The notes under the pieces were generated by a model. That model was not told where the DNA came from. It saw only the letters and a program-made list of their open reading frames with translations, and searched no databases. The translations under genes and the position numbers were made by a program. 64,000 nucleotides of DNA from a virus, in IMG/VR virus record IMGVR_UViG_3300026292_000003, positions 1-64,000 of that record; one strand, 5' to 3'. Shown piece by piece: positions 41,507 to 59,262 of the stretch; the first letter of the stretch is position 1, and each line of letters starts with the position of its first letter.

Positions 41507-43282
41507 ATGTTAAAAATTAAAAACATCACCGTAAAAAACTTTATGAGTGTGGGTAATGTCACACAGGCTGTTCATTTTGATAAACACGGCCTTACACTTG
41601 TACTAGGTAATAACATTGATTTAGGTGGAGATGGTTCACGTAATGGTACAGGTAAAACAACAATTATTAATGCGTTAAGTTATGCGTTATATGGCAATGC
41701 ACTTTATAATATTAAAAAAGATAATCTAGTTAACAAAACTAACAACAAAGCAATGATGGTTACTGTTGACTTTGAAAAAGATGGTATAGCATATAGAATC
41801 GAAAGAGGGCGTAAGCCAAATACATTTAGATTTTTAGTAAACAATCAAGATACAACAGAAGGTATCACTGATGAGATGCAAGGCGAGGGTAGACAAAGCC
41901 AAGCAGTAATTGAACAACACTTGGGTATGACTCATACAATGTTTAAACACATTGTGGCTCTTAACACATATACAGATCCTTTTTTAAGTATGAGAGCAAA
42001 CGATCAACGTGAAATGATTGAACAGTTATTAGGTATTACAAAGTTAAGTGAGAAAGCAGACATACTAAAAGAACTTTCAAAGAATACCAGAGACAAAATT
42101 ACAGAAGAAACATATAAAATAAAAGGTATAGAAGAAGCTAACGAAAGAATTAATAGCAGTATTAAAGATTTAGAACGTAGACAAACACAATGGACACTAA
42201 AACGTGATCAACGTTTAGATGAATCTAAACAAGAAATACAAGTGTTAGAACATATTGATATTGATAAAGAATTACAAGCTCATGAAGATTTTACAAAGTT
42301 TACAGAAAAGAGAAATCAAATTGATACACTAAACGCAGAAATTGCTAAACTTGTTACTGCTATTGAACGTGAAACAAAACGTAGAGACAAAGCACAACAA
42401 GATTTAGATCATGCAAAAGATCATAAGTGTTATGCGTGTGGGCAAGAAATACACGACGAGCAACACGATAAAATTGTTACTGCAAAAACTGAAGCAGTAA
42501 ATGAATGTCAAGAGATTATTAACGAAGACGAAAAGTTATTAAAAGATTACAAAGCAGGATTAGAACAAATTGGGGAACTTGGTGATTCTCCTAGAACGGA
42601 ATATAATAGTTTACAAGAAGCATATGAACATCAAAATAAAATTAAAGAATTGAAATATGATTTAACAAATGCAGAAAACGAAGTTAATCCTTATGCAGAA
42701 CAAATTGAATCACTTAAAGCAACAGGATTACAAGAAGTTGATTGGGCAGAAGTAAACAGATTAACAGAATTAAAAGAACACCAAGACTTTTTAATGAAGC
42801 TACTTACAAACAAAGATAGTTTCATACGTAAAAAGATTATTGAACAAAACTTGCAGTTCTTAAACACAAGGCTTGAATATTATATTACAAGACTTGGACT
42901 ACCACACGAAGTACAGTTTCAAAGTGACTTAACAGTTACAATTACACAACTAGGTCAAGACTTAGACTTTGATAATTTAAGTAGAGGTGAACGTAATAGA
43001 CTTATACTTGGATTAAGCTGGAGTTTTAGAGATGTATTTGAAAGTATGAATCATCCTATTAACTTATTATGTATTGACGAACTTGTTGATAGTGGTATGG
43101 ATACTATCGGAGTAGAGAGTGCATTAGGTATTCTTAAAAAGATGGAAAGAGATAGAGGCAAGAATGTATTACTAGTTTCTCATAGAGATGAGTTAGTAGG
43201 TAGAGTAGGTAGTGTGCTTCAGGTTGTAAAAGAAAATGGGTTTACTACATTTAATACCGAGATAGAAGTAATTGACGCATAA
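41507..43282 (+). CDS. 46: recombination ATPase subunit gp46 (Rad50/SbcC-like)
   Basis: A 591-residue SMC-like ATPase, partner of gp47. Walker A GSRNGTGKTT (43-52), ABC signature LSRGER (about 491) and Walker B LLCIDE (about 520) form the head. A coiled coil surrounds the zinc-hook C308-Y-A-C311. The ATG at 41507 is used rather than an in-frame TTG within gp47 at 41495. Length is close to T4 gp46 (560). It shares a base with the next gene. Confidence 0.95.
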   Translation: MLKIKNITVKNFMSVGNVTQAVHFDKHGLTLVLGNNIDLGGDGSRNGTGKTTIINALSYALYGNALYNIKKDNLVNKTNNKAMMVTVDFEKDGIAYRIERGRKPNTFRFLVNNQDTTEGITDEMQGEGRQSQAVIEQHLGMTHTMFKHIVALNTYTDPFLSMRANDQREMIEQLLGITKLSEKADILKELSKNTRDKITEETYKIKGIEEANERINSSIKDLERRQTQWTLKRDQRLDESKQEIQVLEHIDIDKELQAHEDFTKFTEKRNQIDTLNAEIAKLVTAIERETKRRDKAQQDLDHAKDHKCYACGQEIHDEQHDKIVTAKTEAVNECQEIINEDEKLLKDYKAGLEQIGELGDSPRTEYNSLQEAYEHQNKIKELKYDLTNAENEVNPYAEQIESLKATGLQEVDWAEVNRLTELKEHQDFLMKLLTNKDSFIRKKIIEQNLQFLNTRLEYYITRLGLPHEVQFQSDLTVTITQLGQDLDFDNLSRGERNRLILGLSWSFRDVFESMNHPINLLCIDELVDSGMDTIGVESALGILKKMERDRGKNVLLVSHRDELVGRVGSVLQVVKENGFTTFNTEIEVIDA

Positions 43283-43707
43283 TGATAGATTGGACTTACA
43301 AAGGTGAAGTGGTAACAGAAATTCCAACAGGCGTTGAAGGATTTGTATATTTAATTACAAATACTACAAATAATAAAAAGTATATAGGTAAGAAGTTAGC
43401 AAAGTTTAAAACAACTAAACCACCTCTTAAAGGTAAAAAGAATAAAAGACGTGGAACAAAAGAAAGTGATTGGAGGGACTATTGGGGTTCTTCAGATCAT
43501 TTAAATGCTGATGTATTAAAGCTGGGTGAAGATAAGTTTACCAAAGAAATACTGCATTATTGTCCTAGTAAAGGCGTGTTAAGCTATATGGAAGCAAAAG
43601 AACAGTTTGATCGTAAAGTACTAGAAACAGACGAATACTACAATGGAATCATTAATGTAAGAGTAGGAAGTTCAAAAATTCTTACAGAACATCTGAAAAA
43701 AGGTTGA
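43282..43707 (+). CDS. GIY-YIG endonuclease
   Basis: A 141-residue nuclease: GFVYLITNTTNNKKYIGK carries the GIY-YIG pair (as VYL/YIG), followed by a basic Lys/Arg tract and a conserved-looking Arg and Glu. It overlaps the gp46 stop by one base. Such genes are often homing endonucleases beside conserved genes. The DNA immediately downstream is the structured noncoding region, so an intron link was considered, but no intron core was found. No separate DNA-binding domain is evident. Confidence 0.82.
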   Translation: MIDWTYKGEVVTEIPTGVEGFVYLITNTTNNKKYIGKKLAKFKTTKPPLKGKKNKRRGTKESDWRDYWGSSDHLNADVLKLGEDKFTKEILHYCPSKGVLSYMEAKEQFDRKVLETDEYYNGIINVRVGSSKILTEHLKKG

Positions 43708-43732
43708 CAATGTTATCAATCTTTGTTATATT
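43704..43732 (+). promoter_or_regulatory. sigma70-type promoter of structured RNA
   Basis: TTGACA (43704-43709), 17-bp spacer, TATATT (43727-43732). It overlaps the last codons of the GIY-YIG gene and points into a gene-free stretch, so the product should be an RNA starting near 43739. Confidence 0.78.
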
Positions 43733-43738
43733 ATTGAA

Positions 43739-44225
43739 AATTGGGGTTTTTAACGCATAAACCAGCGAATAATTAAAACATCATATAATTACAAGTAACA
43801 ATTCCCAATAAAAAGCAAAACAGACTTAAAGTCAGACAATTACCGGCAAAACATTTCAATACTAATATAGGCATCAAGGCTCCGTTTGGTCGTCATAAGT
43901 CGACTCACCTTGAGGTCACGTTTCACGTGATCGGATTCTGGTGTTGCCAAAAAACGTCAATGCACTGATTTGACAAATCAAAAAGATCAAGCTCTCCTGA
44001 CACTTGGAACTTGAGGATAGTCCGAAGTTGATAATATAGCAACGGATGTTTCTGCGTTAGTAAAGCAGTATGTAATAAGGGTACCGCGTAACCGCCCTTC
44101 CTAGGTGCTAATCTAGGTTTACTATATTATTGTGTGTATGCTTCTCGGTGAAGAACATTATTTACACTTGGCCTGCGGAAGGCGAAGTGTGAATAAAACA
44201 TCTGGTGAAGTAGCAAGTATTCTAC
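43739..44225 (+). ncRNA. large structured noncoding RNA of unknown class
   Basis: No convincing protein gene lies in 43708-44351, but helices are dense: ATTGGG/CCCAAT (43740-43745 with 43804-43809), GACT-TAA-AGTC (43823-43833), CAAGG/CCTTG (43875-43879 with 43908-43912), GTCACG/CGTGAT (43915-43931), and TGATTT-GAC-AAATCA (43966-43980). A 9-bp closing stem (44031-44039 with 44122-44130) encloses three hairpins. A 9-bp hairpin with inner GCCT/AGGC (44161-44193) follows, then AGTAG/CTACT. The 3' end is uncertain. No match to tRNA, tmRNA, RNase P or group I core was established. Confidence 0.6.
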
Positions 44226-44228
44226 TAA

Positions 44229-44237
44229 CATAAATAC
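44229..44237 (+). promoter_or_regulatory. late-type promoter octamer
   Basis: CATAAATAC at the end of the structured RNA, about 115 nt before the likely ATG at 44352. The leader made from it contains two perfect hairpins, GTTTGAC-GCA-GTCAAAC (44284-44300) and TGATGTC-GTA-GACATCA (44309-44325). Confidence 0.5.
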
Positions 44238-44351
44238 TATTACAAAATTTTGCTTTTCTAGACAGCGATAGCTAATACATCGAGTTTGACGCAGTCAAAC
44301 GAAGATGGTGATGTCGTAGACATCAATTACCTGACAAGCAAGAAAGAAACA

Positions 44352-44810
44352 ATGAACTTCGACGACTTTATTAACAAATTCATACAATGGACTGAAGATA
44401 CGATAGAAAAGCCTCGTTCTGACTTAGATGCCCAACCTATATGTCCATTTGCACGTAAAGCCAGATTGCAAAAGAAAATCCAGTTCTTGGATGCACGTAA
44501 ATCCCTAGATGAAATAAAAACGTTTGATAAAGAAAACTTTGAGATTGGTATTGCCTGGTTAGGTGATATAGATGACATTAGTCCTGTAGAAAAATTTTGC
44601 GAAGAACATATGGAAGCCAATCCTGACTTATTACTTTTTACAAGTACACGTAATAGTGGACACTTTGCAAAAAACTTTACGGATTGTGTGTTTGTTCAAT
44701 TAAAAGGTGATATACTTAAGAAACGTAAGTATTTAAAAACTACTAATTATTATGATAATTGGCCTGCAGAGTATTATAAATTAATTACCGGCGACCAGAA
44801 GCCTGTTTAG
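44352..44810 (+). CDS. hypothetical protein (152 aa)
   Basis: A soluble 152-residue protein. The conserved-looking stretch is QPICPFARKARLQKKIQF, and the C-terminal half contains LLLFTSTRNSGHFAKNF. No domain is recognised. The ATG at 44352 is preferred to a TTG at 44286, because that extension runs through two perfect hairpins. The Shine-Dalgarno sequence is weak. The gene ends 26 nt inside the gp51-like gene on the other strand. Confidence 0.55.
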   Translation: MNFDDFINKFIQWTEDTIEKPRSDLDAQPICPFARKARLQKKIQFLDARKSLDEIKTFDKENFEIGIAWLGDIDDISPVEKFCEEHMEANPDLLLFTSTRNSGHFAKNFTDCVFVQLKGDILKKRKYLKTTNYYDNWPAEYYKLITGDQKPV

Positions 44811-56950: not shown

Positions 56951-57025
56951 ATCAGCTTGGTGCTAATGGTAACATAGCGGTCTCCAAAACCGAAGACGAG
57001 GGTTCGATTCCTTCAGCTGGTGCCA
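56951..57025 (+). tRNA. tRNA-Trp (CCA anticodon)
   Basis: A 75-nt tRNA. Acceptor ATCAGCT pairs with AGCTGGT (one T-G wobble). The anticodon arm has loop CTCCAAA with anticodon CCA. The T arm GAGGG/CCTTC holds loop TTCGATT, and the CCA tail is encoded. The outer base pair of the anticodon stem is a mismatch (G-A). The only tRNA found in this window; it reads UGG codons. Confidence 0.93.
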
Positions 57026-59152: not shown

Positions 59153-59206
59153 ATCGTTCATCCTGTAGATTTCGGACGGAAGTAAGCGAAAGCTGAAGGA
59201 ACGCAT
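59153..59206 (+). promoter_or_regulatory. glutamine-riboswitch-like aptamer, first copy
   Basis: CGTTC (59155-59159) pairs with GAACG (59199-59203). The core GGACGGAAGTAAG and GAAGGAACGC match the recalled consensus of the glnA / Downstream-peptide glutamine aptamers (CGTTCA ... GACGGAAGTAGG ... GAAGGAACGC). It has an A where the second copy has G (GTAAG against GTAGG). Confidence 0.75.
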
Positions 59207-59210
59207 TATC

Positions 59211-59262
59211 ATCGTTCATCTCGTAAGAGACGGAAGTAGGTAATGAACCGAAGGAACGCACT
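59211..59262 (+). promoter_or_regulatory. glutamine-riboswitch-like aptamer, second copy
   Basis: CGTTC (59213-59217) pairs with GAACG (59254-59258). A CTC/GAG stem, then GACGGAAGTAGG and CCGAAGGAACGC match the glutamine aptamer consensus exactly as I recall it. The ribosome-binding AAAGGAGAG of the next gene begins about 10 nt later, so ligand binding could gate translation. Confidence 0.85.

Follow-up and report, generated by a model that had tools for sequence, protein, structure and literature searches.

The question raised by this locus is what is encoded in the gene-free interval between a nuclease gene and a late promoter in the 64,000-nucleotide stretch of viral DNA analyzed here (hereafter, the window). 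The original prediction, made from the sequence alone, proposed some 600 nt of promoter-driven, structured RNA, dense in helices and of no recognized class. On neither strand between nucleotides 43708 and 44285 does an ORF reach 40 aa, and the GIY-YIG endonuclease gene, the consensus promoter and the late-promoter-like sequence which had been proposed were each recovered (Table 1). The nuclease is of the SegE type; members of this family are homing endonucleases in T4. The ATAAATA of the late-promoter-like element is retained in most loci carrying the window type of RNA. The pattern TTGACA-17-TGnTAnnnT was kept in all 19 testable window-type loci, compared with 8% of shuffled sequences; no such conservation was seen for the ATG at 43711, which the promoter overlaps. 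In subtypes other than the window type no sigma-70 promoter is recognizable. A U-tract terminator is absent from the 3' end of the RNA, and there is a single copy of the RNA in the 221,643-base record containing the window. Because folding energy alone is insufficient (the fold of 43739–44351 surpasses those of shuffled sequences by a moderate margin only, z -2.75), the RNA structure was decided by covariation.

Homologs were collected first with the protein of the downstream gene as query and then with DNA patterns taken from conserved stretches; this gave 22 distinct window-type cores from approximately 45 loci. A degenerate pattern on hairpin H2, together with a pattern on hairpin P5, revealed a far wider family; the latter had at least 120 matches, and the count for a third variant pattern is likewise a lower bound. 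The RNA is probably present in several hundred IMG/VR contigs, of up to 355 kb. Eight loci (L018, L021, L052, L061, L063, L066, L070 and L095) were excluded as chance matches to the patterns. A covariance model (R1), built from the 22 window-type sequences over region 43985–44138, matched more than 60 further viral loci end to end, with E-values from 6e-32 to 3e-6. Among these are many of the loci L108–L175, which had been found through P5, outside the region covered by R1.

In an alignment of 57 sequences (A4), 94.4% of the cells were paired, a share which fell to 71.4% after shuffling and to 45.6% or less when the partners were slid; compensatory double changes occurred in 28 of 32 pairs, and the covariation score was 0.610 (shuffled, 0.202; slid, at most 0.104), figures which favor the tested structure inasmuch as A4 was fitted to it. 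Two tests are free of this bias. The plain MAFFT alignment of window-type sequences (A1) scored 0.132 versus 0.076 for shuffled and at most 0.028 for slid sequences, and stem X, which is absent from the aligning model, provides the other. The stems which had been named in advance all lie at the positions given for them, and compensatory base changes across independent viral homologs, together with the conserved promoter, support the prediction of a promoter-driven large structured RNA. The core hardly varies among window-type RNAs; the identity of nearby tail and baseplate proteins, by comparison, drops to 36%.

The core contains the predicted 9-bp long-range stem around three hairpins (stem Y), in which all nine pairs show compensatory changes in A4 and 32 different strand sequences were found. 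Close relatives display compensatory A-U/C-G and U-A/C-G changes in it. With its own partner a Y strand forms a mean of 7.1 bp, versus 4.5 for mismatched or shuffled partners, and for stem X, with 47 distinct strands over 56 RNAs, the corresponding means are 8.4 and 5.1 pairs (shuffled), the best helix being chosen per sequence in the test and likewise in the controls. Stem X reads GUCC/GGAU in the window, GCCC/GGGU in L008 and GCAC/GUGU in L051. Since X crosses Y, the core is a pseudoknot, the long loop of which contains the three hairpins. Stem X had escaped the earlier reading, as had the structured 5' domain and a pair of matched direct repeats.

These repeats, identical over 6–13 nt, lie on both sides of hairpin P5 in approximately 95 loci, and from one phage to another both copies change in concert, the versions including GGUGAAG, GUCAAG, AGAUAAU and AGGAAAUAGUUAA. 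In 94% of the RNAs the identity extends over at least 7 nt, versus 16–23% of controls. No complement to the repeats was found above chance within the RNA or nearby genes, trivial self matches having been removed. P5 itself had been predicted; in close relatives its pairing survives with G-U exchange, and in distant ones through wholesale rewriting (CUUAGCC/GGCUAAG, CUUUGCCC/GGGCAAAG and AAUUCACCGU/ACGGUGAAUU). The two further hairpins foreseen near the 3' end (44284–44325) make up a 3' domain, the strict form of which occurs in 28% of 115 loci, with 10 variants of the outer stem and 10 of the inner one, compared with 0.4% of shuffles. The first of these hairpins may be fully rewritten and still paired (GUUUGAC/GUCAAAC versus ACAAAGC/GCUUUGU), with outer stems CAUC/GAUG, CAGU/ACUG or CAAC/GUUG.

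Table 1. Features of the RNA locus, in window coordinates.
Feature	Position	Strand	Evidence or remarks
SegE-type GIY-YIG endonuclease gene, upstream of RNA	43282–43707	+	PF19835, E=1e-34
Sigma-70-type promoter, extended -10	43704–43732	+	TTGACA-17-TATATT, 11/12 consensus matches, upstream TG
Whole RNA, ~590 nt	43739–44324	+	Conservation and covariation; ends inferred from promoter and last conserved hairpin
5' domain, four stems	43870–43948	+	Pair counts on A1
5' domain outer stem	43870–43872/43946–43948	+	A1
5' domain stem	43888–43894/43899–43905	+	A1
5' domain stem	43906–43909/43940–43943	+	A1
5' domain stem	43914–43919/43927–43932	+	A1
Hairpin GAUUU-GAC-AAAUC	43967–43979	+	Invariant in window type; GGUUU/AAACC in L087
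Hairpin UCAAG/CUUGA with inner stem, loop GCUCUCCUGACA..GGAAC	43987–44014	+	6/8 pairs compensatory in A4
Pseudoknot stem X	44020–44023/44044–44047	+	Covariant; crosses Y
Long-range stem Y	44031–44039/44122–44130	+	Crosses X; encloses three hairpins
Hairpin H1, CUGC/GCAG	44052–44068	+	A4 and A1 pair counts
Hairpin H2, most conserved motif GGGUACMGCRUAACCGCCC	44077–44099	+	A4
Hairpin H3, CCUAG/CUAGG	44100–44117	+	5/5 pairs compensatory in A4
Matched direct repeat GGUGAAG, copy 1	44147–44153	+	Identical-repeat test
Hairpin P5, conserved GGC.AAGUGUGA on 3' side	44161–44193	+	Relatives
Matched direct repeat GGUGAAG, copy 2	44204–44210	+	Identical-repeat test
T4-type late-promoter-like CATAAATAC	44229–44237	+	Sequence; probably serves downstream gene 44352–44810
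3' domain, CAUC-GA-[GUUUGAC/GUCAAAC]-GA-A-GAUG, then hairpin GAUGUC/GACAUC	44278–44324	+	

The RNA region of the window matched no Rfam family, and matches at permissive thresholds were rejected as chance; to this extent the description as a molecule of no recognized class stands. It does not hold for many of the relatives, in which the 5' part of the RNA is Polynucleobacter-1 (RF01718). In other subtypes this family occupies the place of the window-type 5' domain. It matches in 19 scanned relatives (including L068, L071, L077, L112 and L222) and was found also upstream of a third subtype; in the window there was no match at the gathering threshold (37 bits) nor up to E=10. R1, although made exclusively from window-type sequences, hits L068, L071, L077, L086 and others downstream of RF01718, and in 11 loci its match starts only 15–16 nt after the end of RF01718, which indicates that the two are parts of one RNA. 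Polynucleobacter-1 is 141 nt in length and is without the pseudoknot core and 3' domain, together about two-thirds of the RNA. Its model appears to be truncated, since the pseudoknot module follows in the relatives examined for both. The window adds a new subtype to a kind of RNA that had been catalogued only in part, and shows this kind at full length. The literature searched in full text, subscription papers and preprints lying outside the search, mentions Polynucleobacter-1 in a single paper and does not describe the larger RNA.

The RNA has a constant place in the genome: gp47-gp46, nuclease, RNA, zero to few genes, and a convergent T4-type baseplate gene. A nuclease gene precedes it in 100 of 118 loci (90 SegE GIY-YIG and 10 PD-(D/E)XK), and the remaining 18 mostly have no upstream sequence. 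The PD-(D/E)XK phage endonuclease (PF24608) replaces SegE in L075, L087, L128, L137, L154, L157 and others, and the nucleases look as if they had been exchanged at the RNA locus. Three loci of one subtype (L105, L138 and L150) have no nuclease among the three upstream genes called. Among the 102 loci with a gene downstream that could be classed, its orientation is convergent in 46; the 56 codirectional genes come from seven different families. In the window this gene is codirectional, with its ATG 28 nt past the last hairpin. Elsewhere in the window, two tandem glutamine riboswitch aptamers (RF01739; 65.7 and 61.4 bits) were noted at 59153–59262, and the sole tRNA gene, tRNA-Trp (CCA anticodon), at 56951–57025.

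Taken together, we consider it probable that the locus specifies a phage RNA of about 590 nt that stands alone and acts in trans, working as a scaffold in the manner of GOLLD and ROOL. This reading is favored because of the covariation across independent loci, the pseudoknot and the dedicated, conserved promoter, because of the convergent or unrelated genes downstream, and because the window-type core is nearly invariant and present once in the record. Counting against it, the 3' end is without a U-tract terminator, and in most subtypes there is no promoter dedicated to the RNA, whose transcription may come by read-through of the nuclease gene. In the main rival, to which we assign a minor share of the probability, the RNA would be a structured 3' UTR affording cis protection or control of a homing-type endonuclease message, its conservation following that of the nuclease. 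The frequency of an upstream nuclease agrees with this, as does the lack of a recognizable promoter outside the window type. However, the same RNA stands behind two unrelated nuclease families, the window-type RNAs have a strong promoter of their own where the nuclease gene ends, the RNA is present in the three loci with no nuclease among the three genes called upstream, and GIY-YIG relatives in cultured phages are found in other contexts, where the RNA is absent. Less probable still is a role in cis, as a riboswitch or attenuator in the leader of the downstream gene; Weinberg et al. (2010) guessed at such a function for Polynucleobacter-1 and marked it as likely cis-regulatory ('cis-reg: y'; PMC2864571). 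The close codirectional gene of the window would suit a leader, but the convergent genes at other loci argue against one, the RNA is not consistently 5' of a codirectional, functionally related gene, and in the window a late-promoter-like sequence intervenes between the core and the gene.

Two further explanations can be given very little weight. Conservation of the DNA, for example as a homing-endonuclease target beside the nuclease gene, would fit the tight linkage to SegE, but pairing is kept while the letters of both strands change, including in long-range and pseudoknot stems; because a target would conserve letters and not pairs, this is largely refuted, and a role as DNA target could possibly exist in addition to that of the RNA. 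The diverged group I intron which had been entertained, splitting a gene with a 5' exon from ATG 43711, is rejected as extremely improbable. It was suggested by the intron-like strings AAUUACCGGCAAA and GAGGAUAGUCC, by the SD-like AAAAAAGG before the ATG and by the GIY-YIG neighbor. In relatives, however, this ATG is ACG or missing, the P7-like strand becomes AUAGCCC without a change in its supposed partner, its real partner being the 3' strand of X, and there is no second exon; nor did any intron model of Rfam match at E-values up to 10. A P3-P8 core with P7 and joinable exons was not found.

BLASTN searches of 50,697 cultured phages with the window, five relatives and one 90-nt piece returned nothing real, a match in an Erwinia phage being rejected as chance, and two pattern scans of a bacterial and archaeal genome collection were empty. 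No significant model match was obtained in PA5oct, Phosso, Atu_ph07, Vibrio 2.275.O, S-SRM01 and ACP17, which are relatives by gene content, nor, with model R2 only, in V45v66 and Melnitz. Two cultured jumbo phages whose gp46 and baseplate genes are related, Sinorhizobium phage Phosso and Pseudomonas phage PA5oct, show in the corresponding interval gaps of approximately 1.0 kb (L214, 11413–12428) and 0.66 kb (L213, 11867–12531), respectively, which are free of genes and rich in hairpins. Neither gap is matched by R1 or R2; they may contain a more diverged or an unrelated RNA.

The likeness to GOLLD and ROOL (PMC12286853), which the original prediction had raised, holds as an analogy: these too are phage-encoded, ornate and pseudoknotted RNAs of hundreds of nucleotides. 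It does not extend to sequence families, the Rfam models of GOLLD, ROOL and OLE matching neither the window nor the relatives. Unlike them, the window RNA is somewhat shorter and adjoins a nuclease gene and not a tRNA island, the nearest tRNA gene of the window being 13 kb away. Counted with these among the nearest analogs, the abundant noncoding RNAs of the lytic phages ICP1 (PMC7567579) and K (PMC9241854), known from RNA-seq, are also large and intergenic; lnc001 of phage K has its own early promoter (PMC9241854).

As a stand-alone RNA, the molecule would be transcribed from its own sigma-70-type promoter, probably early and by the host polymerase, and its fold would have three parts, namely a 5' domain, a compact core consisting of the X/Y pseudoknot and the three enclosed hairpins, and a 3' domain. 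Like GOLLD and ROOL, it might then form a rigid scaffold for ribonucleoprotein or RNA assembly. The two identical, exposed repeats flanking P5 may be a paired binding site with a partner that varies by phage; of this the matched repeats, for which no complement was found in the RNA or its neighbors, are the sole positive indication.

Few large structured phage RNAs are known (GOLLD, ROOL), and their functions are unexplained. The present RNA is common in uncultured viruses, has a core better conserved than the neighboring tail proteins and keeps a single syntenic position, flanked by recombination genes and by baseplate genes; an existing Rfam family, RF01718, proves to be a fragment of it. 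The covariation-backed pseudoknot supplies exact stems for mutation. Perhaps, and this we advance tentatively, as somewhat less than an even chance, these RNAs constitute a major uncatalogued superfamily whose action during infection would be in trans, as a scaffold or an assembly made of RNA alone, engaging a phage-specific partner through the repeat pair, with Polynucleobacter-1 as the 5' domain of some members.
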